Source: Paludibacteraceae bacterium (lineage in GTDB: Bacteria; Bacteroidota; Bacteroidia; Bacteroidales; Paludibacteraceae). Taken from it: 38,189 nucleotides of DNA. The notes under the pieces were generated by a model that did no database searches, was not told the DNA's origin, and saw only the letters and a program-made list of their open reading frames with translations. The translations under genes and the position numbers were made by a program. Shown in pieces: positions 3,198 through 38,189 of the stretch; position 1 is the stretch's first letter, and the number at the start of each line of letters is the position of its first letter. Where the stretch lies: assembly GCA_017444615.1 (NCBI GenBank), contig JAFSWF010000060.1, positions 1 to 38,189 of the forward strand, given 5' to 3'.

Positions 3198-3218
3198 GGT
3201 GAAAAGTGAAAAATGAAA
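3198..3218. repeat. Three 7-base units between divergent promoters
   Basis: The units ggtgaaa, agtgaaa and aatgaaa follow one another, between the leftward promoter of the BspA-like gene and the rightward promoter at 3235. This is a short member of the 7-base array class found across the window. Confidence 0.6.
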
Positions 3219-3234
3219 GGAATTTGCATTTTTA

Positions 3235-3266
3235 TTTGCGTATGTCAAAAAAAAGTAGTACCTTTG
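3235..3266 (+). promoter_or_regulatory. Promoter of small membrane protein and ompH-like gene
   Basis: TTTG at 3235-3238 and TACCTTTG at 3259-3266 are 20 bases apart. The spacer holds TCAAAAAAAAGTAG, almost identical to the ffh promoter spacer at 27352. The ATG of the first gene is 19 bases past the -7 box, so the leader is very short. Confidence 0.85.
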
Positions 3267-3285
3267 CGGCGTAAATTGAGATATT

Positions 3286-3486
3286 ATGCACCAGATAGTA
3301 ATAGTAATAGGGTTTGTGGGGGTGGCCGTGTTGCTGCTGAGCGTGGGAGTGATTCTGAGGAAGGATCATACGTTTCGGTCGCAACATATGCATGAGAATG
3401 AGCGAATGAGAGAGGATGATATTCGTTGCGCTACTTCGCAAGATAGAGAGATGAGAAGGGGGAATCCTCATAAGATTGAGGTTTAG
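3286..3486 (+). CDS. Small single-pass membrane protein, function unknown
   Basis: 66 residues. Residues 3-24 form one hydrophobic helix (IVIVIGFVGVAVLLLSVGVI), followed by a basic, hydrophilic tail with many Met, Arg and Glu and a C-proximal block IRCATSQDREMRR with a single Cys. I associate this helix-plus-CxxSQDRE layout with conserved small Bacteroidetes proteins of unknown role. A distant resemblance to NqrM-type assembly proteins is possible but unproven, because the Cys cluster of NqrM is missing. It has a strong promoter directly upstream and is followed after 74 bases by an OmpH/Skp-like gene on the same strand, so the two are probably co-transcribed. Confidence 0.75.
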   Translation: MHQIVIVIGFVGVAVLLLSVGVILRKDHTFRSQHMHENERMREDDIRCATSQDREMRRGNPHKIEV

Positions 3487-3523
3487 AGTTGAGAGAAGTT
3501 GAGAGTTGAGAGAAGTTGAGAGT
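3487..3523. repeat. agttgag 7-base array between two genes
   Basis: Imperfect direct repeats of agttgag, with two agaga interruptions, start right after the stop codon of the small membrane protein. The same unit recurs inside waaA at 11641-11668. Confidence 0.8.
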
Positions 3524-3560
3524 GATTTTAAGGAATATAAACATTATAATAAAAATAATT

Positions 3561-4187: not shown

Positions 4188-4211
4188 ATAACTTCGTTGA
4201 CCGCCCTTCGG

Positions 4212-4245: not shown

Positions 4246-6051
4246 ATGTTCGCTGAAAGAAATACTCGTGCCAAAAGGCTAAGAACAAAGACTAATTGGA
4301 TAAGACCGGTACTATTCGGTCTATTGTCTATTGTCCTTTGTCCACTGTCCATTGTGCATGCGCAGCGGATACCTCAGGCGATAGAGTACACGGAGGTGTA
4401 TGATTTTATTGAGGAATTGACGACGGATGGTGTTATTCGTTCGAATGCGGCTATCAAACCTTATACGCGCGATCAGATCGCGCGTATGTTGGTTGAGGCA
4501 CAAGGCAAGGATTCGTTGCTGACGAAACGGCAGAAAGAAGATTTGCAGTTTTATCTGCAAGATTATGCGTTGGAATGCGACACATTGCCGGTGTATTTGA
4601 GTTACGGTCATCGACATGTAACTCAGTGGATTACAGAGGTTTCGAACTTATCGTTGGCGGATCCGAGTTTGCATATATTGACGAAAGATAAGATCTTTAA
4701 GATGCGGGTTCGGCCGATTTTGGGTATGGATATTTATGCCAACCGGAAGGGCTTTATTACACATCGCTGGTATGGGGCAGAGATCCAAATGGACATCGCC
4801 AAACACCTTTCTATCTGGGGTTCGATACGGGACAATAGTTGGAAAGGAACCGGTTACCTGAAAGATGCGTATTACCCGACGGAAGCGGATAAGATCTATG
4901 GTGCGCGGTTGAGTCAACCCGGGTATCTGAATAACTTGCCCGGGGTGCAGTATAAGGAGGCCAATTACGGCGGTGATTTCTCTGATTCGAGAGGAGGTAT
5001 CTCGTTGTATGCCTGGTGGGGTTCTATTGGCGTGCAACGCGAGCGGATTACTTGGGGCGATGCGCAACATAGTTCGAATATCCTTTCGGCGCATAATCCT
5101 GCGGTGCCGATGGTGACGCTGCAATTGACGCCGTGTAAGTGGTTTCAGTTCGATTATTTCCACGCATGGTTGGTTAGTAATGTGATTGATTCGACGTATT
5201 GGTACACAGAGCAGCAGACAGCTACGAGTACGCAGCGCGAGTATCGACCGGCGAATAAGTTTATGGCGGCGAACATGTTTACGTTCATGCCTTGCAAGTA
5301 TGTGCAGTTTTCGTTCGGTAACTCGATTATTTATGCCGAGCGCAATGTGCAGGCGGCGTACTTTATTCCGATTGCTTTCTTCAAATCAATGGACCATCTG
5401 TTGACGAAGGGACTTAATACAGAAAACCAGAACAGTCAGGCTTTTGCGACGATTACTGTTCGTCCAACCGACCATTTGCGGGTGTATGGTTCGTTTTTTA
5501 TCGATGAGTTTAAGTTGTCCCGGCTTAAAAAATCCGACCCTCAACATAATCTGTATTCGTACTTGGTTGGCTTTAATTGGAGCGGTTGGCCGGTACGTGG
5601 TTTGAGTCTGCGGGGTGAGTTTGCCCGAACGAATATCGCTACGTATCAACATTCGATAAAAGTGCTGGATTATACGTCTAATTCGTACACAATGGGACAT
5701 TATATGGGTACGAATGCGCAATCGATTTTTGTGCAGTTGGCGTATCGTCCGACTCGGAGTCTGCGGTTGACGCTCGATTATACCAACGACACCAAATACA
5801 CGACGTATGAGTATATCCGTGGCGATATAAAGACGATTATCTCGCAGCCGTCTTTTGTTAATCCTATTTGGCGCAACGATGAGGTGAACCTGCGGGCTGT
5901 TTATGAGGTCTTCAATAACTGCTACGCGCACGTGGACTTCACCTACAATAATACCCGTGCTTTTGGTGACACGGATATTAACTTGTACTCGCCGGTTTTT
6001 TACCAGGGGCAGAATTTTACCTTTACCTGCGGTCTAAGCTTTGGGTTTTAG
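4246..6051 (+). CDS. Wzi-like capsule assembly outer-membrane beta-barrel protein
   Basis: 601 residues. The only usable start is the ATG at 4246, which gives a long basic n-region (~24 residues), a hydrophobic core LLSIVLCPLSIV and a plausible signal peptidase I site at AHAQ-like residues (HAQ, near residue 40). The body resembles the Bacteroidetes Caps_assemb_Wzi family. It has an N-terminal helical part (EVYDFIEELTTDGVI... with DQIARML), many alternating Trp/Tyr/Phe strands (for example ISLYAWWGSIGVQRERITWGD), and ends in an aromatic residue (CGLSFGF), as outer-membrane barrels do. E. coli Wzi anchors capsular polysaccharide to the cell surface; the exact ligand here is unknown. The hydrophobic core of the signal is encoded by a 7-base repeat array (4321-4355). 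The gene converges on the glycosyltransferase gene at 6072. Confidence 0.8.
   Translation: MFAERNTRAKRLRTKTNWIRPVLFGLLSIVLCPLSIVHAQRIPQAIEYTEVYDFIEELTTDGVIRSNAAIKPYTRDQIARMLVEAQGKDSLLTKRQKEDLQFYLQDYALECDTLPVYLSYGHRHVTQWITEVSNLSLADPSLHILTKDKIFKMRVRPILGMDIYANRKGFITHRWYGAEIQMDIAKHLSIWGSIRDNSWKGTGYLKDAYYPTEADKIYGARLSQPGYLNNLPGVQYKEANYGGDFSDSRGGISLYAWWGSIGVQRERITWGDAQHSSNILSAHNPAVPMVTLQLTPCKWFQFDYFHAWLVSNVIDSTYWYTEQQTATSTQREYRPANKFMAANMFTFMPCKYVQFSFGNSIIYAERNVQAAYFIPIAFFKSMDHLLTKGLNTENQNSQAFATITVRPTDHLRVYGSFFIDEFKLSRLKKSDPQHNLYSYLVGFNWSGWPVRGLSLRGEFARTNIATYQHSIKVLDYTSNSYTMGHYMGTNAQSIFVQLAYRPTRSLRLTLDYTNDTKYTTYEYIRGDIKTIISQPSFVNPIWRNDEVNLRAVYEVFNNCYAHVDFTYNNTRAFGDTDINLYSPVFYQGQNFTFTCGLSFGF
4321..4355 (+). 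repeat. Five 7-base units encoding the wzi-like signal peptide core
   Basis: ctattgt, ctattgt, cctttgt, ccactgt and ccattgt follow without gap. They are read as L-S-I-V-L-C-P-L-S-I-V, the whole hydrophobic core of the signal peptide. Because 7 is not a multiple of 3, gain or loss of a single unit would shift the frame of everything downstream. Confidence 0.88.
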
Positions 6052-6053
6052 GA

Positions 6054-6081
6054 GCCGTCAGCTGTCAGCCGTCAGTATTCA
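6054..6081. repeat. Four 7-base units at the convergent gene ends
   Basis: gccgtca, gctgtca, gccgtca and gtattca lie between the wzi-like stop (6051) and the glycosyltransferase, and supply the last three codons and the stop of the latter. Related units occur in waaA (11894-11907) and in the GSCFA gene (33903-33930). No clear intrinsic terminator was found between these convergent genes. Confidence 0.85.
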
Positions 6082-6962: not shown

Positions 6963-6968
6963 TGGCAG

Positions 6969-7862
6969 TTAGTCGTTAGTCGTTGGTCCAGTCAGGGCCT
7001 CGTTGGTTCTTTTGTGTTTCCAGCGGTTATGGGTCCACAGCCATAGATGCGGGGAGGTTTGGATGTTTTGTTCCAATGCTTGAGCGAAGGCCGTCGTTAT
7101 TTCTCCCGATTGAGACGATTGCGGTTCGGCCGAAAGGATGCGTACGTACCCGTGGTAATAGCCTCGTTTGGGACGAGTGATAAAGACATAGAAGACGGGG
7201 TAGTGGAACTTGGTTCCTAATAACTCTCCACCATCCAGAAATCCAGTGTCTTGGTGCAGAAAATCCACCCACACGTGGGTCACTTCAGGGCGAGGTTTTT
7301 GGTCGGCAATCAGTCCAATGATAACCGGTTGTTTTTCTGCCCGGTAACGCACCATTTCTCGTAGAATGCGTTGTTTTTCCACACATTCGCCTCCTCGTTT
7401 GGAACGGATGTCAAGCATCAATTGGTCAATGCGGGGATTCTTTTGTTTGCGATAGACATTGAGTTCTTTGACGCCCGGTGACACCCATAATTGCATGGTA
7501 GCCATCCACTCCCAATTGCCCATGTGTGCGAGCATGAAGATACCTCCTCCGGCGGCATCGATGAGTCGGTTCACTTCCTCCATGTTTTCGAAGATGACGC
7601 GTTGTTTCATCTCTTGGTCGGGGCAGTGATAGCCGTAGATGTTCTCTACGATGTTGTCACAAAACTGATGGTAAAAATCGCGCGCTATTTGTTGGCGTTC
7701 GGCGTCGGTCTTGTCAGGAAAAGCGTTTTGCAGGTTCTTGGTCACCATTTTGCGTCGATAGCGCACTACATAGAAAAGTAGCGGAAAGAGTATTCCATCC
7801 GCGAGTAAATAGTGCACGCGCAAAGGTAGGCGGCTTAGAAGAGAGACCAGAACATGTAACAT
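6969..7862 (-). CDS. LpxL/HtrB-family lipid A acyltransferase
   Basis: 297 residues with an N-terminal hydrophobic anchor (residues ~5-33) and the catalytic HX4E motif HMGNWE at 113-118. The later family blocks IGLIADQKPRP and LDGGELLGTKFHYPVFYVFI are present, and WLWTHNRWKHKR closes the fold. The family transfers a fatty acyl chain from acyl-ACP to lipid A precursors at the inner membrane; chain and position are not predictable. The last 11 residues, NEALTGPTTND, and the stop codon come from a 35-base repeat that recurs inside valS (37137-37171). The start overlaps the 3' end of cdsA by 28 bases, so the genes are probably translationally coupled. Confidence 0.92.
   Translation of the reverse strand: MLHVLVSLLSRLPLRVHYLLADGILFPLLFYVVRYRRKMVTKNLQNAFPDKTDAERQQIARDFYHQFCDNIVENIYGYHCPDQEMKQRVIFENMEEVNRLIDAAGGGIFMLAHMGNWEWMATMQLWVSPGVKELNVYRKQKNPRIDQLMLDIRSKRGGECVEKQRILREMVRYRAEKQPVIIGLIADQKPRPEVTHVWVDFLHQDTGFLDGGELLGTKFHYPVFYVFITRPKRGYYHGYVRILSAEPQSSQSGEITTAFAQALEQNIQTSPHLWLWTHNRWKHKRTNEALTGPTTND
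6972..7006 (-). repeat. 35-base element, copy 1 (lpxL end)
   Basis: This stretch matches 37137-37171 in valS at 34 of 35 bases (the difference is G at 6985, A at 37150). It has two 7-base units of the gtcgtta type plus a 21-base unique part. It is read as NEALTGPTTND and the repeat supplies the TAA stop. Confidence 0.92.
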
Positions 7863-11008: not shown

Positions 11009-12283
11009 GTGTACCTGTATTTTTTATTGATACGAATTGCAGCTTGGCTCGGGCATGAAAAAGCCCGAGCCTTGGTGCGTGGACAGAAGGAACAAAAAGC
11101 GCACCCTGAGCGGATAGCCGTCCATGCCGGTGCTATTTGGATTCATGTGGCATCGGTTGGAGAGTTTGAGCAAGCGAGACCGTTGATTGAGCGAATAAGG
11201 AGTACAGAATACAGAGTACAGAGTACAGACCGAATTACTCCTACAATTGTCGTCACTTTTTTCTCGCCGTCGGGATATGAGATGCGGAAGGGGTATGAGT
11301 TGGTGGATGGTGTTTTTTATCTTCCTTTTGCTACAAGGCGTAACGCGCGGAGGTTTTTGGATACGCTGCAACCAAAGATGGCTATTTTTGTCAAGTATGA
11401 GTTTTGGCCGGCGTATTTGCATGAACTGAAGAAACGCGGTATTCCAACCTATTGTATCTCCTCTATTTTCCGTCCCACGCAACGGTTCTTCCATTGGTAT
11501 GGCAAGTTAGGGCTTCGTTTGTTGCATTGTTTCACGCATATCTACGTACAGGATGAGGCTTCGCGTCGTTTATTGGCAGAGCACGGGGTGCATGACTGTT
11601 CTGTGACAGGCGACACGCGGTTTGATAGAGTGACGAAAATAGTTGAGAGTTTAGAGTTGAGAGTTGAGAGAGATGAGCGTTTGGCGCCTATAGCACAATT
11701 TGTAGAAGGCTGCGAGCGGGTGATTGTAGCCGGTAGTACATGGCCTAAAGATGAGGAGTTGCTGGAGAGGGCGTTTAGCGATGAGCGATTAGCGATGAGC
11801 GGGACTAAGCTTATTATTGTGCCACATGAGATAGATGAAGCGCATTTGCATTTTATCTTTAAGTTGTTCCAAGGAAGGCTAATCACTTATTCCGCCATCA
11901 GCCGTCAGCCTTCTGCTACTCGTCGGAATATACTGCAGCGAGCGAATGTGCTGGTGGTGGACCAGATGGGTCTGCTTTCGAAGATTTATACCTTTGCTCA
12001 AGTTGCTTATATAGGAGGCGGTTTTGGCGCAGGTATCCATAACACGATTGAAGCCGCGGTGTACGGTTTGCCCGTTGTATTCGGGCCTAATTACACACAT
12101 TTCCGCGAAGCGAAAGGCCTGATAGCAGCGGGTGCCGCGCGGAGTATTAACAATAGTGAGGCTTTGGCAGAGGCATTGGCTTTGGCGTTAGAGCAGCACG
12201 AGAAGATAGGAGAGAAAGCGCGCGAGTATGTACAAAGTGAACTCGGCGCCACTGAGCGCATTTATCATGCGCTGTTTAATTGA
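11009..12283 (+). CDS. waaA: 3-deoxy-D-manno-octulosonic acid (Kdo) transferase
   Basis: 424 residues, GT30 family. A short N-terminal anchor (YLYFLLIRIAAWL) is followed by the catalytic SVGEFEQARP with Glu near 52, FFSPSGYEMRK, KYEFWPAYL, the C-domain block AGSTWPKDEE and the sugar-nucleotide site GGGFGAGIHNTIEAAVYGLPVVFGP. It attaches Kdo to lipid A precursor at the inner membrane. The start is GTG at 11009, because an in-frame TAA (the stop of the previous gene) directly precedes it. Four 7-base repeat arrays lie in frame inside the gene (11201, 11641, 11771, 11894) at positions that look like surface loops, and the stop codon lies in a fifth (12279). All catalytic blocks are intact, so the gene is probably functional. 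Confidence 0.94.
   Translation: MYLYFLLIRIAAWLGHEKARALVRGQKEQKAHPERIAVHAGAIWIHVASVGEFEQARPLIERIRSTEYRVQSTDRITPTIVVTFFSPSGYEMRKGYELVDGVFYLPFATRRNARRFLDTLQPKMAIFVKYEFWPAYLHELKKRGIPTYCISSIFRPTQRFFHWYGKLGLRLLHCFTHIYVQDEASRRLLAEHGVHDCSVTGDTRFDRVTKIVESLELRVERDERLAPIAQFVEGCERVIVAGSTWPKDEELLERAFSDERLAMSGTKLIIVPHEIDEAHLHFIFKLFQGRLITYSAISRQPSATRRNILQRANVLVVDQMGLLSKIYTFAQVAYIGGGFGAGIHNTIEAAVYGLPVVFGPNYTHFREAKGLIAAGAARSINNSEALAEALALALEQHEKIGEKAREYVQSELGATERIYHALFN
11201..11228 (+). repeat. Four 7-base units inside waaA (agtacag type)
   Basis: agtacag, aatacag, agtacag and agtacag, followed by accga, are read as STEYRVQSTDR (residues ~65-75). The same units, followed by the same accga, occur upstream of the GSCFA gene at 33688-33713. 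Confidence 0.92.
11641..11668 (+). repeat. Four 7-base units inside waaA (agttgag type)
   Basis: agttgag, agtttag, agttgag and agttgag are read in frame as part of VESLELRVERD (residues ~212-222). They are related to the intergenic array at 3487-3523. Confidence 0.9.
11771..11798 (+). repeat. Four 7-base units inside waaA (gcgatga type)
   Basis: gcgttta, gcgatga, gcgatta and gcgatga are read as part of AFSDERLAMSG (residues ~255-265). Confidence 0.88.
11894..11907 (+). repeat. Two 7-base units inside waaA (gccatca type)
   Basis: gccatca and gccgtca, followed by the degraded gccttct, are read as AISRQPS. Related units lie at 6054-6081 and 33903-33930. Confidence 0.7.
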
Positions 12284-12361
12284 TAATTGATAATTGACAA
12301 TTGATAATTCTTAGCCCTGAAGGGCACAATTATTTGACAAAGTCAAATCTTGATAATTGAT
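12279..12361. repeat. attgata arrays and two palindromes between waaA and hisS
   Basis: Four 7-base units (attgata, attgata, attgaca, attgata; 12279-12306) contain the waaA stop codon. Then come the palindromes gccctgaagggc (12313-12324) and tttgacaaagtcaaa (12333-12347), and two more units (12348-12361) end four bases before the hisS ATG. Nothing else is seen in the gap. Confidence 0.88.
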
Positions 12362-24371: not shown

Positions 24372-26895
24372 TGAACTGTTTCTCGAATGTAGCCTTCAGG
24401 CGGTTCATGATGTTTTCTATCTGCGTGTCTTTGAGCGTGTTATCGGGGTCTTGTAAGATGAACGAGATCGCGTATGATTTCTTACCGGCCGGTAAGTTCT
24501 TGCCTTCATAGACGTCAAAGAGGAACACGTTCTTGAGCAGTTTCTTCTCAGTCGCAAACGCCGCGCGGGCAAGGTCTGCGAACTGTACTTCGGTATCAAC
24601 GAGCAACGCAAAATCACGTTTCACTTCGGGATACTTAGGCAGGTCGGTGATGACGGCTTTGTATTGTTTGTTCTGCTTCAGAAGGGCGTTCCAGTCCAAG
24701 TCGGCGTAGAACACTTCTTGGTCGATATCGAAGATCTTCAGCACCGAACGAGCGACGATACCGATGAAGCCTAAACACTTGCCGTTCACCGCTTTGAGCA
24801 CTAAACCGTCTGCGAATAGTTCGGACTCTAATTTCTCCGTCGTCAGTTTGGCTACATCCACGCCCAGACGAGTCAATATATTATTTACGTACGCGCGCAA
24901 ATGGTAGAACGAACTCTTCTCCTCTTTGCGTACCCAACTCTGCGCGGCTTTGTTGCCGGTTACCCACAAACCCAAATGCGGCTCTTCTGAGTAGCGTACG
25001 AGCGGATCTAATTCCTTCCCTTCAGGGAGGGTTAGGGTAGGCTTGTAGTGGTAACAATTGCCAAACTCATAGAACTGCAGGTCGGTGTTACGACGGTTCA
25101 CATTGCGGGCAATGGACTCCAGACCGCCAAAGAGCAAGGTCTGACGCATCACACCAAGGTCTTGGCTCAGCGGGTTCATAATCTTCACGCACGTATCAAG
25201 CGTCAGTTCGTGGAGCGGCTCGTAGTAACTCATTTTCGTCAGTGAGTTATTGAGGATCTCGTTGAAGCCTTGTGCCGTCAGCTGCTCGGCAATGCGGCGT
25301 TGTAAGGCCACAGGGTCGGGTTTCTTACCGTACGCCAAACTGGTGTTCAACTTCTCAGGGAACTCAATATTGTCGTAGCCGTAGATACGCAGAATATCTT
25401 CCACTACATCGCACTCACGCTGCACATCCACGCGGTAACGCGGCACTTCAAGTTGCCAAACATCGCCGTTCTTGGACTTGATCTTAATCTCCAACGCGTT
25501 AAGGATGGTCTCAATCGTCTCTTCGTCTATCGCTTTTCCTATCAGTGAGTTAACACGGTTGATATCAATCGTCACAGGCCAGGGCGCAAACACCTCTCTC
25601 CCGTCTCCACCAAGGGGAGAAGCTCCCTCTCCTTGGGAGAGGGGTTGGGTGAGGTTGTCACTAACCTCCATCGCTACTTGTCCACCGGCTACTTCTTGAA
25701 TCAGCAAGGCCGCGCGTTTGAGAACGTAAAGGGTATTATTGGGATCGCAGCCACGCTCGTAACGGAAAGAAGCGTCTGTTTGCAACTGATGCCTACGGCT
25801 GGTCTTACGAATCGTCACAGGGTCAAAATAAGCGCTCTCAAGGAAGATATTCTTCGTCTGCTCACTCACGCCGCTTTCCAGACCTCCGAACACACCGGCG
25901 ATACACATCGCTTCTTCGGCATTAGCAATCATCAGGTCGCGTTCATCCATCGTCCGCTCAATGCCGTCCAGCGTCACAAACTTCTCTCCGGCGTGCGCAT
26001 AACGCACATGAATCTCGTTACCCTTGATCTTATCGGCATCGAAAGCGTGCAAGGCCTGACCCATCTCATGCAGCACGAAGTTCGTTACATCCACGATATT
26101 ATTGATAGGCCGTAAACCGATGGTGCTCAGCGCTTTCTGCAACCACTCCGGTGATTCTTTTACCGTCACACCGGTGATACTGATACCTGTATAACGCGGA
26201 CAAGCCTCCGGCGCATCTACAATAACCTTCACCTTAAGCCCTTCACTATTCACCTTAAACGCCTCCACCGAAGGTTTCTGAAGGCGGACTGCTGACTGCT
26301 GATGGCTTTGATAGTACGCATACAGATCGCGCGCTACGCCGTAGTGACTGCAAGCGTCCGAACGGTTAGGTGTTATATCTACCTCAATCAGCGTATCGTT
26401 CTCCACGTGGTAATAATCCGCCGCTTTCATACCAACCGGTGTGTCGGCAGGCAGCACAATGATACCGGCGTGGTCAGTTCCTACACCTATCTCATCCTCT
26501 GCACAGATCATTCCCCAACTCTCCTCACCGCGCAGCTTACCCTTCTTGATCGTAAAGGATTGTTCGGCTCCGGAGCCGCTCCGGTCATAAAGCACGGTGC
26601 CGATGGTAGCAACAATCACTTTCTGACCGGCAGCCACGTTCGGTGCACCGCAAACGATAGGCAACGGTTCGCCTTCACCGATATTCACTTTGGTAACATG
26701 CAAATGGTCCGAATTAGGGTGCGCCTCGCAACTCAGCACTTCGCCTACTACCAAGCCTTTCAGACCGCCACGGATGGTCTCTACTTCCTCTACTGTTCCT
26801 ACCTCGAGACCGATAGAAGTAAGAATCTTGGCTACTTGTTCTGCATCATCCGGCAGATTAATATAGCGCTTTAACCAGTTGTACGAAATATTCAT
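24355..26895 (-). CDS. pheT: Phenylalanine--tRNA ligase beta subunit
   Basis: 846 residues. The N-terminal tRNA-binding EMAP/OB domain ([19 protein letters not shown], ~55-73), B3/4 editing domain, B5 domain, the catalytic-like core and a C-terminal ferredoxin-fold anticodon-binding domain (ending [15 protein letters not shown]) are all present. It pairs with PheS, not seen here. Two in-frame palindromic repeats lie in it: one read as [17 protein letters not shown] (25592-25656), between the B3/4 and B5 regions, and one read as [14 protein letters not shown] (25014-25043). A short duplicated stretch, SHQQSAV, also looks repeat-derived. The flanking motifs are intact, so these are tolerated additions. 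It is the first gene of the leftward run. Confidence 0.95.
25014..25043 (+). repeat. Palindromic G-rich element, copy in pheT (degenerate)
   Basis: The arms CCTTCCC and GGGAGGG around TTCA are followed by TTAGGGTAGG. This is a degenerate version of the 25625-25655 element, in the same orientation, and is read through on the minus strand as part of pheT. Confidence 0.65.
25592..25656 (+). repeat. Palindromic G-rich element, copy in pheT (best preserved)
   Basis: CCCTCTCC-TTG-GGAGAGGG (25625-25643) is followed by a G-rich tail to 25655. It matches 28 of 31 bases with the valS copy on the opposite strand (37633-37663). A second, weaker hairpin (ctcc-accaa-ggggag) precedes it. In pheT it is read as [11 protein letters not shown] plus flanking residues. 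Confidence 0.88.
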
Positions 26896-26952: not shown

Positions 26953-27040
26953 GATTTTACAAAAAAAATCAAACTACTTGACTTTTTTGCAAAATTTTTA
27001 TGTGCGATGATTTTCCGAAAAAAACCTTTCGGTCTCTTCG

Positions 27041-27112
27041 GATTCTCCGGATTCTCCGGATTCTCCGGATTCTCCGGATTCTCCGATCTCTCCGGATTCT
27101 CCGGATTATCCC
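27041..27112. repeat. Eight tandem 9-base units (gattctccg)
   Basis: Five perfect gattctccg units are followed by atctctccg, gattctccg and gattatccc. The array lies in the 513-base gene-free stretch between the divergent pheT and ffh genes. Its open frames encode only Gly-Phe-Ser or Asn-Pro-Glu triplets and are not genes. Confidence 0.95.
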
Positions 27113-27119
27113 TAATCTG

Positions 27120-27207
27120 CCCCGAAACTGCCCCGAAACTGCCCCGAAATTGCATCGAATGCTCATCGTATGCTCATCGTATGCTCATCGTATGCTGAAT
27201 GGATGCT
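27120..27207. repeat. Eight tandem 11-base units drifting in sequence
   Basis: Three ccccgaaactg-type units pass into four catcgtatgct-type units and a last degraded one, all on an exact 11-base register. It starts eight bases after the 9-base array. The rest of the gap to 27352 is AT-rich with no gene seen. Confidence 0.93.
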
Positions 27208-27408: not shown

Positions 27409-28707
27409 ATGTTTGATAACTTAAGCGAACGATTAGAGAGAAGTTTTAAGATTCTGAAAGGTGAAGGTCGTATCACCGAAATCAATATTGCTGAGACCGT
27501 CAAGGATATCCGCAAGGCTTTGCTGGAAGCGGATGTGAACTACAAGACTGCCAAACAGTTCACCGACCGCGTGAAGGAGAAAGCATTGGGACAGAACGTC
27601 ATCAACGCTGTTCGGCCGGGGCAATTGATGATTAAGATCACCCACGACGAGTTGGCGGAACTGATGGGTGGCGAAGCGCAGGAGATTAACCTGAAAGGTA
27701 ATCCGGCAGTCATCTTAATGGCTGGTTTGCAAGGTTCCGGTAAGACGACGTTTGCCTCCAAACTCGCCAATTATCTGCAGACCAAGAAGGGCAAGAAAGT
27801 GATGCTCGTGGCCTGCGACGTCTACCGCCCTGCCGCCATCGAGCAATTACGCGTATTAGGCGAACAAATCAACGCCAAGGTCTATACCGGCGAGAATGAA
27901 CCAAACCCTGTCAAGAAAGCCGAGGCAGCTATCTCAGAGGCCAAGAAATTCGGCTACGATGTGGTGATCGTGGATACTGCCGGTCGTTTGGCGGTTGATG
28001 AACAGATGATGAACGAGATAGCCGCTATCAAACAGGCTATCACGCCGAGCGAGACTTTATTTGTCGTCGATGCGATGACAGGTCAAGACGCCGTGAATAC
28101 CGCTAAGGAGTTCAACGACCGACTGGATTTTGGCGGCGTAGTACTGACCAAACTGGATGGTGACGCCCGAGGCGGTGCAGCCCTCAGTATCCGAACGGTG
28201 GTCGATAAACCGATTAAGTTCATCGGCACCGGCGAGAAGATGGAAGCCATTGATGTGTTCCACCCCGCACGTATGGCAGATCGTATCTTAGGTATGGGTG
28301 ATGTCGTATCGCTCGTGGAGCGCGCGCAAGAACAGTACGACGAAGAGGAAGCACGGCGCGTAGCGAAGAAGATTGCCAAGAACCAATTTGATTTCAATGA
28401 TTTCCTTGGACAATTGGCGCAAATCAAGAAAATGGGTTCGATGAAGGACCTGTTGGGTATGATACCGGGCATGGACAAAGCGCTGAAAGGTGTAGAAGTG
28501 AGCGACGACGCATTCAAACCCATTGAGGCGATGATCAACTCCATGACGCCGGCTGAACGTGCTAACCCCTCCTTGCTCAACGGTAGCCGAAAAGCGCGTA
28601 TTGCTAAAGGTGCCGGAGTGGACATTGTTGCCCTCAACCGATTCCTCAAACAATTCGACCAAACGGCAAAGATGATGCGCAAAGTGCAACAAATGAAGAG
28701 ACGGTAA
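27409..28707 (+). CDS. ffh: Signal recognition particle protein Ffh
   Basis: 432 residues. The N domain (residues 1-~95) is followed by the G domain with P-loop GLQGSGKTT (106-114), DVYRPAAIEQL, DTAGRLAVDE (~188) and TKLDGDARGGAALS (~247-260). The Met-rich M domain (~300-432) holds MGSMKDLLGMIPGM and ends in KMMRKVQQMKRR. Ffh with 4.5S RNA brings nascent membrane proteins to FtsY. Neither FtsY nor 4.5S RNA is in the window. folD follows after a 29-base repeat-filled gap, probably in the same transcript. Confidence 0.97.
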   Translation: MFDNLSERLERSFKILKGEGRITEINIAETVKDIRKALLEADVNYKTAKQFTDRVKEKALGQNVINAVRPGQLMIKITHDELAELMGGEAQEINLKGNPAVILMAGLQGSGKTTFASKLANYLQTKKGKKVMLVACDVYRPAAIEQLRVLGEQINAKVYTGENEPNPVKKAEAAISEAKKFGYDVVIVDTAGRLAVDEQMMNEIAAIKQAITPSETLFVVDAMTGQDAVNTAKEFNDRLDFGGVVLTKLDGDARGGAALSIRTVVDKPIKFIGTGEKMEAIDVFHPARMADRILGMGDVVSLVERAQEQYDEEEARRVAKKIAKNQFDFNDFLGQLAQIKKMGSMKDLLGMIPGMDKALKGVEVSDDAFKPIEAMINSMTPAERANPSLLNGSRKARIAKGAGVDIVALNRFLKQFDQTAKMMRKVQQMKRR

Positions 28708-28712
28708 ATAGC

Positions 28713-28745
28713 AAATGGTAAATGGTAAATGACCAAATGGTAAAT
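28713..28745. repeat. aaatggt 7-base array spanning the folD start
   Basis: aaatggt, aaatggt, aaatgac and caaatggt, then aaat, fill the ffh-folD gap and contain both possible ATG starts of folD (28722 and 28737). Confidence 0.88.
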
Positions 28746-29666
28746 ATCCTTGATGGTAAAAGAGTAGCGGCGGAGATTCGCGCGGAACTGCGCGCTGAGG
28801 TCGAAACGTTGAAGGCACAAGGCAAACGAGCGCCGAAATTGGCCATTGTGCTGGTAGGAAACAACCCTGCAAGCGAGGTATATGTGGCTAACAAACTCAA
28901 GGCCTGCGCAGAAGTGGGTATCGAGGCGCAAGCCATTCGCTATCCGATGGACATCACCGAGCACACCTTGCTCAACGAGATAGCCAAACTCAATAACGAC
29001 GCCTCTATCGACGGCTATATAGTGCAACTACCGTTGCCGGAACACATCAACGAAACGGCGATTCTCTCTGCCATCGATTACCGCAAAGACGTTGATGGTC
29101 TGACACCGGAGAACGTAGGCCGTACAGTACAAGGTTTGCCTTCTATCATCAGCGCTACGCCCCGCGGTATTCGCGAACTGTTAGCGCGGTATAACATCCA
29201 AACGGCCGGTAAGCATGTGGTGGTCATCGGACGGTCGAACATCGTCGGTAAACCGATGGCTATCCTGCTGATGCAACGGCCGTACTTATCCCTGCCGGGC
29301 ATGAGTGCCTCTGCGTTGGGAGATGCCACCGTCACGATCTGTCACAGCAAGACACAAGACCTCGCAGCTATCTGCCGCACAGCGGATATCATCATCGTAG
29401 CGGCTGGCTCTCCAAAACTATTAACTGCGGAAATGGTCAAAGAAGGCGCCGTAGTGATCGATGTTGGTATCAATAGAGTCGAAATCACCAATAACCAATC
29501 ACCAATCACCAATACCAAGCGTTTCCGCTTGGTAGGAGATGTTGATTTTGAACACGTAGCGCCGAAGGCGTCGTATATAACCCCCGTGCCCGGAGGCGTA
29601 GGACCGATGACGATTGTCAGTCTGCTGCAAAACACAATACAAGCATACAATGAACATTCTCGATAA
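28737..29666 (+). CDS. folD: Bifunctional methylenetetrahydrofolate dehydrogenase/cyclohydrolase
   Basis: 309 residues from the ATG at 28737, where MVNILDGKRVAAEI gives the usual family start; the ATG at 28722 would add five repeat-encoded residues. The substrate Lys/Tyr box SEVYVANKLKAC (Tyr in EVYV), DGYIVQLPLPEHI, DVDGLTPENVGR, the NADP-binding VVIGRSNIVGKPMA and PVPGGVGPMTIVSLL are all present. It oxidises 5,10-methylene-THF and opens the methenyl ring in the cytoplasm. A 7-base array (29483-29510) is read as part of VEITNNQSPITN, in a loop that varies between species. The end overlaps prfA by 17 bases. Confidence 0.95.
   Translation: MVNILDGKRVAAEIRAELRAEVETLKAQGKRAPKLAIVLVGNNPASEVYVANKLKACAEVGIEAQAIRYPMDITEHTLLNEIAKLNNDASIDGYIVQLPLPEHINETAILSAIDYRKDVDGLTPENVGRTVQGLPSIISATPRGIRELLARYNIQTAGKHVVVIGRSNIVGKPMAILLMQRPYLSLPGMSASALGDATVTICHSKTQDLAAICRTADIIIVAAGSPKLLTAEMVKEGAVVIDVGINRVEITNNQSPITNTKRFRLVGDVDFEHVAPKASYITPVPGGVGPMTIVSLLQNTIQAYNEHSR
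29483..29510 (+). repeat. Four 7-base units inside folD (aatcacc type)
   Basis: aatcacc, aataacc, aatcacc and aatcacc are read in frame near the C-terminal part of FolD as ITNNQSPIT. Confidence 0.9.
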
Positions 29667-30750: not shown

Positions 30751-31457
30751 TGTATTTATTCTACTGTCCTGATATTGAAGTAAAACAGACCCTCTCTGAA
30801 GAGGAGAGTGGACATTGCGTGCGGGTGTTACGCTACACCAAAGGTGATGAGATTCTCATCACAGATGGACGCGGTACAACCTATACCGCGCGTATCACGA
30901 ATCCGCATCCCAAGCATTGCGATTTTGAGATCATCAGTCGCGAGAAGCAAGAACCGCATCATCATTTCCATTTGCACATAGCCGTGGCACCCACGAAGAA
31001 TATCGAACGCTTGGAATGGGCCATTGAGAAATGCGTGGAGATAGGCGTAGATGAAATCACGCCGCTGTTATGCCGTTTCTCCGAACGCAAGCAGTTACGC
31101 ACCGACCGATTAGAGAAAATCATCCTCTCTGCCGCCAAACAGAGCCTCACACCCTATCTACCCGTCCTCCACGAACTCACACCATACGATGAATTCATCA
31201 AACGACAAACGACAAACGACCAACGACAAAACTTCATTGCGCATTGTTATAAGGACGAGAAGAGGTTGCTCAAACAAGAGATAGAGCGGGGCAGGGATGT
31301 TGTCGTGCTTATCGGACCGGAAGGAGACTTCAGCGAGCAGGAAGTAACTGAAGCGTTAGCGGCAGGTTTTATTCCTGTTAGTTTAGGCAATTCGCGTCTG
31401 CGCACCGAGACTGCCGCCGTTGTGGCGTGTCATACGGCGGTGCTCGTTAATGAGTAA
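30750..31457 (+). CDS. rsmE: 16S rRNA (uracil-1498-N3)-methyltransferase
   Basis: 235 residues. The N-terminal PUA-like part (HCVRVLRYTKGDEILITDGRG region) is followed by the SPOUT knot with LIGPEGDFSEQEV and VSLGNSRLRTETAAVVACH, the SAM-binding signature of RsmE. It methylates U1498 of 16S rRNA. A 7-base array (31199-31230) is read in frame as KRQTTNDQRQN, at a loop between the two halves, where Bacteroides relatives as I recall them are a few residues shorter. The start overlaps the prfA stop (TAATG). Confidence 0.94.
   Translation: MYLFYCPDIEVKQTLSEEESGHCVRVLRYTKGDEILITDGRGTTYTARITNPHPKHCDFEIISREKQEPHHHFHLHIAVAPTKNIERLEWAIEKCVEIGVDEITPLLCRFSERKQLRTDRLEKIILSAAKQSLTPYLPVLHELTPYDEFIKRQTTNDQRQNFIAHCYKDEKRLLKQEIERGRDVVVLIGPEGDFSEQEVTEALAAGFIPVSLGNSRLRTETAAVVACHTAVLVNE
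31199..31230 (+). repeat. caaacga 7-base array inside rsmE
   Basis: Three perfect caaacga units are followed by ccaacga and a partial unit, read as QTTNDQRQ. The reverse complement of this unit builds the valS array at 36594-36625, where it is again read as NDQRQTTND. Confidence 0.93.
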
Positions 31458-32454: not shown

Positions 32455-33687
32455 ATGCCAAATAGTGCATTTAAAATAGCCTTACGTTTGTATTTTTCAC
32501 AAGAAGGTGAGCAACGTAATTCGCGGCCGGCTGTGCGGGTGGCGTTAGCGGGTATGATAGTAGGGGTATTGGTGATGATTCTAACGATCTGTATTGTGGT
32601 GGGATTTAAGCAGACGATTACACAGAAAGTAGCAGGCTTTGGGGCGCATATACAGGTTGTTTCCTTTGATAATAACAACACGTATGATTTGCAACCGATT
32701 GCCGTCTCGGACTCGTTGTTGGCGGTCTTGGGGGGCTATGAACATGTTCGGGCGGCGGTGCCTTTTGTAACCAAGCCCGGAATGCTGAAGACAGCAACTG
32801 ATTTTCAAGGGTTTGTGCTCAAAGGAACCGATTATTGGGATTTTTTTGCCGCTAATCTGATAGAAGGGACGTTACCGGACAAACCGCAAGAGATTCTTCT
32901 CTCGCAGTCGATGGCGGATAAGATGAAGTTGCACATAGGCGATGCTGTGAATGCGTATTTTGTTGATAATCAGGATGTTCGTGCGAGACGGTTTAAGATA
33001 GTAGGTTTATACGAAACGGGCTTTGGTCAGTTCGATGAGCTCTTTGTGTTAACGCCTTTAGCCACTGCGCAGCGTTTGTTGCCGGCTGATGCAAGGGGGC
33101 AATACTCCGGCGTGGAGATCTTGCTGGACGATATGCGGTATTTGGATGAAGTGGCGGATAAGATTTATTTTGCAACGGTTCACCTTTACGATGAGGATGG
33201 TTATAACGCCTATTATGTGGAGACGCTTCATCAACAAAATCCTGCTATTTTTGCGTGGCTGGACTTGCTGGATATGAATGTGGTAGTGATTATTGTGCTG
33301 ATGCTCTTAGTGTCAGGCTTTAATATGGTGTCGGGACTGATAATATTGATTCTGGATGGCATCCCATTGATAGGAACGTTGAAGGCCTTAGGGGCAGATA
33401 ATACGTTTGTGCGGCGGATCTTCCTCACGCAGGCGGCGATGCTTATTGGCAAAGGAGTGTTATGGGGCAATATAATTGGTTTAGGTTTGGCGGCATTGCA
33501 GTACTGGACGCATTTGGTACCACTGGAGGCAGCTACGTATTACGTCAGTTATGTGCCGATTACGTTTGCGTGGGGGTGGATTATTGCGCTCAATGTGCTG
33601 ACGATAGTTTTGTCGCTACTCATCCTATTGTTGCCATCGCTTATTATCACCAAAATCAGTCCCGCACAAGTAATGCGATTTGAATAG
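32455..33687 (+). CDS. FtsX/LolC/LolE-type ABC transporter permease
   Basis: 410 residues. One helix near the N-terminus (residues ~28-50, VALAGMIVGVLVMILTICIVV), a large periplasmic MacB-like domain (~55-270), then three helices (~278-305, ~325-350, ~370-400) form the 4-helix FtsX topology. The C-terminal end, KISPAQVMRFE, is typical of LolC/LolE permeases in Bacteroidetes. These release lipoproteins from the inner membrane together with the LolD ATPase, which is not in the window. A related role in lipid or peptide export cannot be excluded. The GSCFA gene follows after 28 bases of repeat. Confidence 0.88.
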   Translation: MPNSAFKIALRLYFSQEGEQRNSRPAVRVALAGMIVGVLVMILTICIVVGFKQTITQKVAGFGAHIQVVSFDNNNTYDLQPIAVSDSLLAVLGGYEHVRAAVPFVTKPGMLKTATDFQGFVLKGTDYWDFFAANLIEGTLPDKPQEILLSQSMADKMKLHIGDAVNAYFVDNQDVRARRFKIVGLYETGFGQFDELFVLTPLATAQRLLPADARGQYSGVEILLDDMRYLDEVADKIYFATVHLYDEDGYNAYYVETLHQQNPAIFAWLDLLDMNVVVIIVLMLLVSGFNMVSGLIILILDGIPLIGTLKALGADNTFVRRIFLTQAAMLIGKGVLWGNIIGLGLAALQYWTHLVPLEAATYYVSYVPITFAWGWIIALNVLTIVLSLLILLLPSLIITKISPAQVMRFE

Positions 33688-33708
33688 AGTACAGAATACA
33701 GAATACAG
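33688..33708. repeat. Three 7-base units upstream of the GSCFA gene
   Basis: agtacag, aatacag and aatacag, followed by accga, fill the gap between the permease stop and the GSCFA ATG. This is the same family as the array inside waaA at 11201-11228. Confidence 0.92.
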
Positions 33709-33715
33709 ACCGAGT

Positions 33716-34576
33716 ATGAAGTTACAGACACAGGTAGAAATAAAGCCCTCTAAATGGAAGATAGAGCCGGAGGATAAGATCCTAGCGGTGGGTTCGTGCT
33801 TTGCGGACGAGATCAGCCGTAAGATGGAAGAGTGTTACTTGCCGGTGACTTCTAACCCATTCGGCACGCTCTATAATCCGCTTTCTATTGCGCAGGCATT
33901 CAGCCTTCAGCCATCAGATGTCAGCTATCAGTTTTACGACGGTCTTTGGCATTCGATGGCACACCATGGTTCGTTCTCGCGGCCTACGAAAGAGGAAGCT
34001 GAGAAGGCGGTCGTGGCGTCTATTGAGACGCTGCAAAGGGCGTTAAAAGAAGCAAAGGTAGTGATAGTGACTTTTGGCACTGCGTGGATTTATGAAAGTA
34101 CAAAGGGACAAGGTACAAAGGACAAAGGTCAAGTGGTGGCTAATTGTCATAAGATGCCGGCGGAGTGGTTTAGCAGAAGGCGATTGACGGTGGAGGAGAT
34201 CGTAGCAGCGTGGAAGCCGATTATTGAGGCTTATGCAGATAAAAGATGGATCTTTACCGTTTCGCCTATACGACATGTAAAAGACGGGCTGCATGAGAAC
34301 CAATTGAGCAAAGCCACGCTGTTAATGGCGGTGGAGCAACTCTCCTCCCTTGTGGGGAGGTCGGGAGGGGTTACTTATTTCCCCTCGTACGAGATTGTAC
34401 TCGATGAGTTGAGGGATTATCGGTTCTATGCCGATGATTTGGTGCATCCGTCGAGTTTGGCGGTCAATTATATATGGGAGCGTTTTTGTGAGACATATTT
34501 CTCGCCGCAGACAAGAAACGAATTGGTCTTGGCGCATAAGCGTTGGCAATTTGAGCATCATCGGCCGTTACATTAA
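33716..34576 (+). CDS. GSCFA domain-containing protein
   Basis: 286 residues from the ATG at 33716 (MKLQTQVEIKPSKW). The name-giving box VGSCFADEISRKM (~27-39) is followed by NPFGTLYNPLSI, VTFGTAWIYE, CHKMP and SPIRHVKDGLHENQLSKA, the conserved order of this SGNH-hydrolase-like family common in Bacteroidetes. The Ser in GSCFA and the later D..HP (DDLVHPSSLA) would fit catalytic Ser and Asp-His. Substrate is unknown. Three repeat segments lie in frame: 33903 (SLQPSDVSYQ), 34096 (STKGQGTKDKGQV) and 34343 (SLVGRSGGV). Confidence 0.9.
   Translation: MKLQTQVEIKPSKWKIEPEDKILAVGSCFADEISRKMEECYLPVTSNPFGTLYNPLSIAQAFSLQPSDVSYQFYDGLWHSMAHHGSFSRPTKEEAEKAVVASIETLQRALKEAKVVIVTFGTAWIYESTKGQGTKDKGQVVANCHKMPAEWFSRRRLTVEEIVAAWKPIIEAYADKRWIFTVSPIRHVKDGLHENQLSKATLLMAVEQLSSLVGRSGGVTYFPSYEIVLDELRDYRFYADDLVHPSSLAVNYIWERFCETYFSPQTRNELVLAHKRWQFEHHRPLH
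33903..33930 (+). repeat. Four 7-base units inside the GSCFA gene (gccatca type)
   Basis: gccttca, gccatca, gatgtca and gctatca are read as LQPSDVSYQ. The units are related to 6054-6081 and 11894-11907. Confidence 0.8.
34096..34130 (+). repeat. Five 7-base units inside the GSCFA gene (aaggtac type)
   Basis: aagtaca, aagggac, aaggtac, aaaggac and aaaggtc are read as STKGQGTKDKGQ, a low-complexity basic loop right after the conserved FGTAWIYE block. Confidence 0.85.
34343..34373 (+). repeat. Palindromic G-rich element, copy in the GSCFA gene
   Basis: The arms CCTCCC and GGGGAGG around TTGT are followed by TCGGGAGGGGTT, the same layout and tail (TCGGG) as the valS copy. It is read in frame as SLVGRSGGV. 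Confidence 0.75.
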
Positions 34577-36163: not shown

Positions 36164-36183
36164 GCATAACACCTTATATTACT

Positions 36184-36214
36184 AAAAAGGACGAGCTTCG
36201 TGCTCGTCCTTTTT
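36184..36214. terminator. Strong bidirectional terminator
   Basis: Perfect 13-base arms, aaaaaggacgagc (36184-36196) and gctcgtccttttt (36202-36214), flank the loop ttcgt. The arms begin with A and end with T runs, so it works on both strands: for the secreted protein gene and, from the other side, for valS. Confidence 0.92.
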
Positions 36215-36220
36215 AGTTTG

Positions 36221-36335
36221 CGGTAATATAGAACATTTATCGCATGGTTTTTGGCCTATAATTACCCTCGGCTTGCCTTTGACTTGCCTTCGACTTTATT
36301 TCGACTCACTCTCGTACGGCAATATTGAACATTTA
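36221..36335. repeat. 11-base array bracketed by 19-base direct repeats
   Basis: cggtaatatagaacattta (36221-36239) and cggcaatattgaacattta (36317-36335) differ at two of 19 bases and bracket a degenerate 11-base array (36261-36315: attaccctcgg, cttgcctttga, cttgccttcga, ctttatttcga, ctcactctcgt). The right copy contains the valS stop codon. The whole looks like an inserted unit between terminator and valS. Confidence 0.75.
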
Positions 36336-38189
36336 GGCTTTCAAGGCTGCGATGGAGGCTTCGATGGCTGCGATGCGTGATTCGGCATCGGCTTTCTTCT
36401 TACGCTCCAGTTCTACGATTTCCGGTTTGGCGTTCTGTACAAAGCGTTCGTTACTAAGTTTCGCCATGACGCCACGGAGGAAACCTTGTTGGTGCGCGAG
36501 GTCCGCCTCGAGTTTCTTCAACTCCTCGTCCACGTTGATGAACTTATCCAATGGGATGGCATATTCGACCGTTCCTACAAGGAAGGTCGATAGTTTGTCG
36601 TTTGTCGTTTGTCGTTGGTCGTTAGACAGTTCTACATTAGCGAGTTTGCTCAGGAGGGCAGCATAGGCGTAGGTGTCGGCTCCGTCGAAATAGAGCGTGA
36701 GCACTTCCTTTGGTGGGATGTTCTTCGACGCACGGATGTTACGAACACCTGCTACGATGAGTTTGAGGTTTTCAACTTCGTCTAGGAGGCCTAGGTTGCC
36801 TATGTTGCCTAGGTTGCCTAGTTGGCTGGTCATGATACTCTCGCCCGGTTGGCGCTCGTAGAGGTTCTGCCAGAGTTCCTCTGTGATGAACGGCATGAAG
36901 GGGTGGAGCAGTTTGAGCATGCGGTCAAAGAAAGCGAGGGTCGCTTCGTAGGTCTCGCGGTCGATAGGCTGTTGGTACGCGGGTTTGATCATCTCTAAGT
37001 ACCATCCGCTGAACTCGTCGCAATAGAGTTTATATATTGCCATGAGGGCCTCCGAGAGACGGTATTTGCTAAAGAGGTCGGTGATTTCTGCTTCGGCCTG
37101 ACGCAGTTTGGCATCAAACCAAGCTATGGCTTGTTGGTCGTTAGTCGTTAGTCCAGTCAGGGCCTCGTTGGACACTTCCCAGCCTTTGATGAGGCGGAAG
37201 CAGTTCCAGATCTTATTGCAGAAGTTACGTCCTTGCTCGCAGAGCGAGTCATCATAGAGGATGTCGTTTCCGGCAGGTGCGCTCAACAAGATACCCATAC
37301 GTACGCCATCGGCTCCGTAACGCTCGATGAGGTCAAGCGGGTCAGGACTGTTGCCAAGCGATTTGGACATCTTACGGCCTAACTTATCGCGGACAATACC
37401 TGTGAAATAGACGTGACGGAACGGCATTTTGCCTTGGTATTCATAGCCCGCCATGATCATACGTGCTACCCAGAAGAAGATGATGTCCGGTCCGGTTACG
37501 AGGTCGGCGGTGGGGTAGTAGTATTGGATCTCCTTGTTGTTCGGATCTTCGATGCCGTTGAAGAGGCTGATAGGCCACAGCCATGAGCTGAACCAAGTAT
37601 CCAGCGCGCCTTCGTCTTGAACGAGGTTGGCCACCTCACCCCGACCCTCTCCCAAGGAGAGGGAGGACTGTAGGGCTTTGGCTTCTTCGAGGGTCTCGGC
37701 GACGATGATCTTGTCGGCGGGGTAGTCCTCGAGGCCGGTTTGGGCAAGGAGGTCGGTGTCGTAGTAGGCAGGAATACGATGTCCCCACCAGAGTTGACGA
37801 GAGATGCACCAGTCTTTGATGTTCTCCAGCCAGTTACGGTAGGTGTTCTTGTATTTCGCGGGATAGAAGACAATCTCGTCGTTCATTACCGGCGGCAGTG
37901 CGATGTCAGCAAAGTGCTGCATTTTGATGAACCATTGGAGGGACAAACGAGGTTCGATAGGCACGTTGGTGCGCTCGGAGTAACCCACTTTGTTGTCGTA
38001 GTCTTCAATCTTCTCCACGAGGTTGAGCGCTTGCAGGTCCTCTACAATCTGTTTGCGGCAGTCGAAACGGTCCATGCCGTGGTACTTGCGTACGTTGGGT
38101 TGGAGTTCGGGTTCGACGGTATCCATGTTGAGATGCGCGTCCGGCGTGAAGATATCGATGGTGCGTAGGTTGTATTTCTGTCCGAGGGC
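36333..38189 (-). CDS. valS: Valine--tRNA ligase, C-terminal part (cut by right edge)
   Basis: The frame is open to the window edge (619 residues visible); the N-terminal third with the HIGH motif is outside. Visible are the WFIKM and CISRQLWWGHRIPA blocks, KMSKSLGNSPDPLDLIERYGADG (KMSKS motif), the anticodon-binding domain (PFITEELWQNLYERQPG), and the C-terminal coiled-coil arm (ELKKLEADLAHQQGFL to the end). It charges tRNA-Val. Four repeat segments are read in frame: 37633-37663 (SLSLGEGRGEV), 37137-37171 (NEALTGLTTND), 36781-36825 (GNLGNIGNLG) and 36594-36625 (NDQRQTTND). Motifs between them are intact. Confidence 0.96.
   Translation of the reverse strand, partial: ALGQKYNLRTIDIFTPDAHLNMDTVEPELQPNVRKYHGMDRFDCRKQIVEDLQALNLVEKIEDYDNKVGYSERTNVPIEPRLSLQWFIKMQHFADIALPPVMNDEIVFYPAKYKNTYRNWLENIKDWCISRQLWWGHRIPAYYDTDLLAQTGLEDYPADKIIVAETLEEAKALQSSLSLGEGRGEVANLVQDEGALDTWFSSWLWPISLFNGIEDPNNKEIQYYYPTADLVTGPDIIFFWVARMIMAGYEYQGKMPFRHVYFTGIVRDKLGRKMSKSLGNSPDPLDLIERYGADGVRMGILLSAPAGNDILYDDSLCEQGRNFCNKIWNCFRLIKGWEVSNEALTGLTTNDQQAIAWFDAKLRQAEAEITDLFSKYRLSEALMAIYKLYCDEFSGWYLEMIKPAYQQPIDRETYEATLAFFDRMLKLLHPFMPFITEELWQNLYERQPGESIMTSQLGNLGNIGNLGLLDEVENLKLIVAGVRNIRASKNIPPKEVLTLYFDGADTYAYAALLSKLANVELSNDQRQTTNDKLSTFLVGTVEYAIPLDKFINVDEELKKLEADLAHQQGFLRGVMAKLSNERFVQNAKPEIVELERKKKADAESRIAAIEASIAALKA
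36594..36625 (-). repeat. tcgtttg 7-base array inside valS
   Basis: Plus-strand units tttgtcg, tttgtcg, tttgtcg and ttggtcg, then ttag, are read in valS as NDQRQTTND. Same family as rsmE 31199-31230 and as the 7-base part of the 35-base element. Confidence 0.93.
36781..36825 (-). repeat. Five 9-base units inside valS (cctaggttg)
   Basis: tctaggagg, cctaggttg, cctatgttg, cctaggttg and cctagttgg are read in valS as repeated Gly-Asn-Leu/Ile triplets (QLGNLGNIGNLGLLD). Nine bases keep the frame, so copy changes would only add or remove three residues. Confidence 0.9.
37137..37171 (-). repeat. 35-base element, copy 2 (inside valS)
   Basis: 34 of 35 bases match 6972-7006. Here it is read through in the same frame as NEALTGLTTND and continues into the valS anticodon-binding region without a stop. 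Confidence 0.92.
37633..37663 (-). repeat. Palindromic G-rich element, copy in valS
   Basis: On the minus strand CCCTCTCC-TTG-GGAGAGGG is followed by TCGGGGTGAGGT. It matches the pheT copy at 28 of 31 bases and is read in frame as SLSLGEGRGEV within the editing/catalytic region of valS. Confidence 0.9.

Follow-up and report, generated by a model that had tools for sequence, protein, structure and literature searches.

The 38,189-nt stretch analyzed here (the window; positions 1-38,189, forward strand, of contig JAFSWF010000060.1, assembly GCA_017444615.1, from a Paludibacteraceae bacterium) carries a class of short, imperfect tandem arrays with a 7-nt period, whose existence in the window and across the genome is confirmed. 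Many of these arrays are read in frame inside core genes, among them those for WaaA, FolD, RsmE, ValS, and a GSCFA protein, and there they mostly overwrite stretches of the coding sequence. Our best reading, to which we give a probability of about 0.5, is short-patch ectopic copying of arrays and of palindromes resembling repetitive extragenic palindromic (REP) sequences into permissive sites, together with slippage and recombination between species.

Abundance of period-7 arrays in the window, the genome, and the genus

Tandem similarity was scored at +1 per match and -2 per mismatch for periods 3 to 30. Scores of at least 12 define strong arrays and scores of at least 9 a looser class; the shuffle background covers the strong arrays and exact runs. 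Strong period-7 arrays number 10 in the window; across 40 third-order Markov shuffles their mean was 0.02, and no shuffle had more than 1. Exact period-7 runs of at least 10 number 11, against 0.12 expected. A first-pass annotation of the same DNA had listed 19 such sites. Seventeen of these coincide with a period-7 segment at the looser cut, those at 11894 and 12348 fall below it, and one segment that passes it, at 26287, was missing from the list.

The same excess is seen in the genome at large. We sampled 318,235 bases, the window plus 16 further stretches of the same assembly (G000 in our numbering of genomes; 1,595,505 bases in 72 contigs, 76% complete), or ~20% of it. This sample contains 94 strong period-7 arrays and 52 at period 14, a harmonic; no other period between 4 and 30 has more than 17. 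The shuffle comparison proposed with the annotation came out far above background (94 versus 0 in 318 kb, one shuffle), and the densities in window and genome bear out its claim of a proliferating class.

Across the genus, array densities ranged from 0 to 65 per 100 kb in single 11- to 20-kb stretches of 20 congeners (374 kb with 51 arrays in total; five of the 20 had none), and samples of ~100 kb gave 3 to 35 per 100 kb in seven congeners and 0 in one genome of another family. Other families of the order had three arrays in 260 kb from 13 genomes (~1 per 100 kb), and other lineages 24 in 1.38 Mb from 76 named loci. Given this range among congeners and the sparse outgroups, high density is a property of part of the genus. 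Chance and base composition are ruled out as causes by the Markov shuffles and by the synonymous and codon-order shuffles described below. An assembly artifact is unlikely, as arrays occur in many separately assembled genomes and the carrying frames are intact in the orthologs examined. The best named relatives by FolD are four uncultured Bacteroidales metagenome genomes (77 to 82% identity), three with RUG names, a prefix that presumably denotes the rumen; the next matches, Paludibacteraceae among them, reach at most 58%. The genome RUG11479 matches congener G006 at 100% over 12.3 kb. In a 20.9-kb locus of Flavipsychrobacter sp. HJP_bin8 (L095), there are eleven period-8 arrays but no period-7 array, and this lineage may favor another unit size.

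Unit families and composites shared between unrelated sites

The 97 arrays of score at least 11 in the own-genome sample fall into 46 classes when units are equated by rotation and strand. Units drawn at random from the genome give a mean of 92.5 classes and never fewer than 85 (200 draws), so the recurrence of unit families at distant sites, as first claimed, holds. In a comparison of eight genus genomes, the frequency with which two arrays belong to one class is 0.0326 if both come from a single genome and 0.0101 if they come from different ones. With shuffled genome labels the within-genome value averages 0.0173 and never exceeds 0.0241 (300 trials). Permuting the letters of the units gives at most 0.0052 (500 trials), so composition does not explain the sharing.

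Two composite families extend this beyond the heptamer itself. Core B, a 20-bp sequence (GTCCAGTCAGGGCCTCGTTG), follows the arrays at 6971 and 37137, and ~13 of its inner bases lie outside the heptamer pattern. With no more than one mismatch, it occurs at 22 sites in five of the 121 genus genomes searched (seven in our own genome, six in G110, five in G118, three in G035, and one in G138). Because the reversed pattern itself produced 7 hits with three or fewer mismatches, we discounted matches with two or three mismatches in genomes other than these five. Translation of 24 core B loci yielded 21 distinct stretches, in 19 of which the longest open frame reads TNEALTGPTTND or TNDQRGPDWTND through the core (two of these frames are only 45 aa), while in loci L208 and L211 it lies on the opposite strand. 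The host proteins are unrelated save for one pair, in which the core sits between different flanking residues.

Family A (TGACCAAATGGTAAATR) alternates AAATGGT with AAATGACC. Our own genome contains 27 exact copies of it and 83 near ones, whereas the reversed pattern has none. The 30 loci fetched represent 25 distinct copies, and near 20 of them an open frame of at least 80 aa begins, with a stop no more than 120 nt upstream in 15 of those 20. At 2000 random positions, the corresponding figures are 24% and 7%. The presence of core B in unrelated proteins and the near-exact sharing support copying between loci, a claim also made in the annotation, and the composites and the within-genome excess of shared units speak for it alike.

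Rewriting of the same stretches in core proteins

We aligned WaaA, ValS, GSCFA, and RsmE orthologs with MAFFT from 30 genomes each, our own included (120 sequences), taken from the 55, 120, 55, and 53 genomes, respectively, with a match. At a period-7 score of at least 10, these contain 52 in-frame arrays, only two of them in RsmE. Five synonymous shuffles left one to four arrays and five codon-order shuffles none. The arrays fall into 13 variable stretches. Eleven of these are occupied in two or more genomes, and eight of the 11 show a different unit class in every genome. The comparison with relatives proposed with the annotation does not refute its claim either: they do not encode identical residues in unrelated codons at these positions but have other sequence, other arrays, or nothing. 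The in-frame arrays first described in core genes, FolD among them, are real, although that account was incomplete, since other species have REP-like palindromes and further kinds of repeat in the same protein stretches.

ValS stretch 1 illustrates this best. The array-free sequence ADIPQPETSKY or a variant of it is found in 20 of the 30 genomes. At unchanged length, G118 reads SNDQRQTTNDF and G143 SNDKSQMSNDY; G065 has an AAAGTCG array and our own genome an AACGACT array with core B. By eye, we also recognized family A in G009 and G123, a GGTTACG-like repeat in G126, a 6-nt repeat in G093, and REP-like palindromes in G035 and G036. Arrays of five further unit classes occupy stretch 2 of ValS in six other genomes. 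GSCFA stretch 3 is, depending on the species, short, occupied by palindromes, or occupied by arrays of AAATGGT, AAAGTCG, CGTCAAT, or AACGACY; where our own genome has a REP-like hairpin, G035, G070, G022, G079, and G012 have heptamer arrays. In G065, G006, and G002 (loci L281, L282, and L283), this stretch carries a further dispersed repeat with CGGTCTNACAG words. Separately, PheT has an in-frame REP-like hairpin (window 25600-25653, minus strand), and similar words recur in the own-genome sample.

In most cases, the arrays replace rather than add. Their median length is 29.5 nt (4.4 copies), whereas the median net growth of the stretch over array-free orthologs is 9 nt. The net change is no more than 3 nt in 14 of the 52 arrays and less than half the array in 38, and it does not follow array length (r = -0.003). 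Columns conserved in at least 80% of sequences account for 0 to 6% of array residues, against 42 to 80% of all residues; judging from this and from the alignment gaps, the stretches are probably surface loops.

Closely related pairs can differ in the content of one site. At 93.5% identity over 881 bp, contig 93 of G012 and G035 have arrays of different families (~43 and 37 nt) at one GSCFA site. G030 and G127 (87.4% over 3011 bp) differ in the arrays just after valS and, at two GSCFA stretches, in having an array or none. Contigs 93 and 109 of G012 (C93 and C109) carry two differing copies each of rsmE and GSCFA, one of them near G035, and 6% contamination is listed for this genome, which may be a bin mixing two organisms.

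Site preference and reading frame

A simple home-made gene caller puts 48 of the 97 own-genome arrays entirely within predicted genes, 27 partly within them, and 22 elsewhere; the caller placed the waaA start too late, so that one WaaA array is counted as intergenic. This fits the earlier estimate of about half in genes. With 87.8% of the sample predicted to be coding, this share still means a lower array density within genes than outside them. Peptides encoded by the coding arrays are rich in S, Q, T, and N. The consensus unit contains a stop on the coding strand in seven of the 48 coding arrays and on the opposite strand in 27. In stretches 2 and 3 of WaaA, the consensus unit would give an in-frame TGA, and the affected unit reads TTA. 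Each of the eight TAATTGA arrays has a predicted stop codon within 10 nt, compared with 28 of the 97 arrays overall. Seven is not divisible by 3, so that a long array encodes the same cyclic heptapeptide in every frame.

Origin of the arrays

Ectopic copying of short patches would make the arrays a genus-wide population of short dispersed repeats. Slippage would create and resize arrays of a single 7-nt size class, and segments of ~20 to 45 nt, consisting of an array with or without a family-specific core, would be copied from locus to locus by template switching or illegitimate recombination at microhomology, with no need for a dedicated enzyme. Copies would survive where harm is small: in variable stretches of proteins when the unit is stop-free in the coding direction, in start regions when it holds ATG, and at gene ends when it holds TAA or TGA. 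Recombination between congeneric species would then move filled and empty alleles. Most of the data, including the palindromes in the same stretches, agree with patch copying from elsewhere in the genome under selection for frame and harmlessness. Template switching, as in microhomology-mediated break-induced replication, and short-patch double illegitimate recombination would swap a short patch for sequence from elsewhere; here, by comparison, such a process is proposed. More tentatively, and at less than an even chance, the heptamer arrays may be enzyme-independent dispersed elements that spread by such copying, repeatedly rewriting the same stretches of essential proteins at near-constant length, with separate families for coding stretches, start codons, and stop codons and with a 7-nt period that is indifferent to frame.

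Some observations, given here with the alternatives they favor, weigh against copying. No donor/recipient pair was seen, the relatives being mostly 80 to 88% identical in DNA, so that the chemistry of copying, like its direction and any ongoing activity, is something we infer. The net lengths hinge on the MAFFT alignment and on the choice of array-free sequences. In 12 of the 52 arrays, the stretch is longer by at least 21 nt, as simple insertion predicts, and the FolD array region is 6 to 13 residues (18 to 39 nt) longer than in four relatives. Such lengthening would suit local slippage alone, whereby chance seeds grow with a 7-nt preference set by the polymerase and selection keeps those in frame. 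Slippage would also explain why a single unit size comes with many sequences and why the number of units varies, and the idea that heptamers reflect a polymerase footprint is in print (PMC4692102). As the sole cause it is unlikely, however, in view of the non-heptamer cores common to unrelated sites, the genome-specific unit families and changes of family at one site, the length-neutral replacement in an essential gene (valS), and the frame cost of 7-nt steps.

Inheritance might explain other features. In this account, long-established arrays persist at long-established sites with homogenization of their units, recombination swaps alleles between species, and there is little copying between loci. 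In GSCFA stretch 1, 12 of the 30 genomes have arrays that are alike in length and related in their units (seven unit classes), which resembles a single inherited array with units that changed in concert. In ValS, a ~60-nt patch differs between G083 and G088 (95.3% identical over 4763 bp), and the G083 version resembles the G143 allele; the difference looks like recombination between species, which therefore plays a part. Genome-specific class sharing, too, could come from an inherited tendency to expand certain units. Even so, inheritance is improbable as the main explanation, since ValS stretch 1 and GSCFA stretch 3 contain palindromes as well as units unrelated to one another, ValS stretch 1 is array-free in most species (20 of 30), and core B occurs in unrelated proteins.

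Finally, a dedicated mobile-element enzyme, be it a RAYT transposase, a reverse transcriptase, or something unknown, might spread the arrays as nonautonomous elements. RAYT-type enzymes are thought to move REP-like palindromes, which occupy the same stretches as the arrays. One Y1_Tnp match at the cutoff was found in G035, and RVT_1 in four of 12 genomes tested (G015, G030, G002, and G057). Neither domain had a match in G000 (76% complete) or in G034 (97% complete, with seven arrays in one 20-kb stretch), both array rich, which for these two genomes speaks against RAYT and reverse transcriptase as drivers. The ValS and FolD array stretches also fold no better than shuffles (z of -0.21, -0.73, and none). 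We regard an enzyme of this kind as very unlikely to be responsible.

Relation to known repeats and significance

The annotation had likened the arrays to the short tandemly repeated repetitive (STRR) sequences of cyanobacteria. Like the STRRs and heptamer repeats of Nostoc and Calothrix, they are short, imperfect 7-nt tandem arrays, many per genome. The label is nevertheless not supported: the published heptamers TAACTGA, GGGAATC, GGGGATT, GGGGACT, and GTGATTA, of which GGGGACT and GGGGATT are characteristic of Nostoc, occur in none of the 97 own-genome arrays, and the host belongs to the Bacteroidales. Here, many unit families coexist, and about half of the arrays lie in genes. Mainly noncoding positions are reported for the Nostoc repeats (PMC4692102); in our sample, which is 87.8% coding, 48 of 97 arrays lie wholly in predicted genes.

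Repeats resembling STRRs were also said to be unexpected in Bacteroidales. TAACTGA direct repeats have already been reported in Beggiatoaceae, cyanobacteria, and five Bacteroidetes (PMC4679880). Many of those lie near start codons, as does family A; they consist of one unit, whereas here there are 46 classes among 97 arrays and coding stretches are rewritten as well. Rickettsia palindromic elements (PMC10969869) are likewise dispersed repeats of several families that lie in frame in unrelated genes, as core B and the arrays do. Those elements are ~150-bp palindromes, in contrast to the 20- to 45-nt heptamer arrays, which are short, fold like shuffles in ValS and FolD, and mostly overwrite rather than add. 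The Bacillus tandem repeats of fixed size and variable sequence (PMC8161180) share the principle of one length with many sequences per genome, with units of 20 to 21 or 52 nt rather than 7. PMC4692102 cites heptamer overrepresentation in bacteria and a report by Lin and Kussell that simple sequence repeats are suppressed midway through bacterial genes, and a high genic repeat density is described for Bacteroidota (PMC12699852).

The kinds of repeat are thus already known, and within our literature search the combination was not found in print; nor did that search, whose coverage left out most subscription papers, find a report of such overwriting. In the present case, sister species show parallel rewriting of stretches of essential enzymes by simple repeats that differ in sequence. 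This is a natural experiment on how genes acquire short nonhomologous patches and on where ValS, WaaA, or FolD tolerates almost any peptide. If ectopic copying is confirmed, proteins would diversify and new start and stop regions would arise through it without a transposase. Such insertions are also poor phylogenetic markers.

Features of the window

Table 1. Heptamer arrays and in-frame hairpins, with period-7 segment scores where available
Feature	Position	Strand	Location and peptide	Score and remarks
GTGAAAA array	3199..3218		intergenic	10
AGTTGAG array	3476..3523		intergenic	unit shared with WaaA array at 11641
GTCCATT-type array	4319..4359		first codons of Wzi-like gene (Pfam PF14052)	16
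AGCCGTC array	6053..6075		between Wzi-like gene and end of family 2 glycosyltransferase gene (Pfam)	10
AACGACT array + core B (6985-7005)	6968..7005	-	C terminus of LpxL-type acyltransferase, NEALTGPTTND	
AGTACAG array	11200..11229	+	WaaA variable stretch 1, STEYRVQSTD	17; absent or different in relatives
AGTTGAG array	11641..11670	+	WaaA variable stretch 2, VESLELRVER	17; other units in G034 and G030
AGCGATG array	11771..11801	+	WaaA variable stretch 3, SDERLAMSG	12; four other units in four other genomes
Weak TCAGCNN array	11891..11920	+	WaaA variable stretch 4, SAISRQPSAT	below cut
TAATTGA array	12277..12309		spans waaA stop codon	20
Family A composite (AAATGGT/AAATGACC)	28703..28746	+	stop of upstream gene and folD start, MVNDQMVN	
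AATCACC array	29483..29518	+	FolD, ITNNQSPITNT	18
CAAACGA array	31199..31230	+	RsmE, KRQTTNDQRQ	19; net +3 nt
AGAATAC array	33686..33709		between permease-like gene and GSCFA gene	14
TTCAGCC array	33899..33917	+	GSCFA stretch 1, SLQPSDVSYQ	9; arrays there in 12 other genomes
AAGGGAC array	34098..34133	+	GSCFA stretch 2, STKGQGTKDKGQ	11; +24 nt
REP-like hairpin, in frame	34340..34372	+	GSCFA stretch 3, LSSLVGRSGGV	
AAACGAC array	36593..36623	-	ValS stretch 2, SNDQRQTTNDK	21
AACGACT array + core B (37150-37170)	37131..37172	-	ValS stretch 1, SNEALTGLTTNDQQ	
REP-like hairpin, in frame	37629..37673	-	ValS	

Repeats of other sizes are also present. Intergenic arrays of 11-nt units (TATCCTATGGG, CTGCCCCGAAA, and CATCGTATGCT) lie at window positions 48-92 and 27117-27207, the latter adjoined by ~8.6 copies of a 9-nt unit (TCTCCGGAT) at 27035-27111. 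The 11-nt unit is a second repeat size that is frequent in the genus as well, with 14 period-11 arrays in the 374 kb of congener sequence. On the minus strand, positions 355-2949 encode a large surface-type protein with leucine-rich repeats of 23 residues (69-nt DNA repeats).

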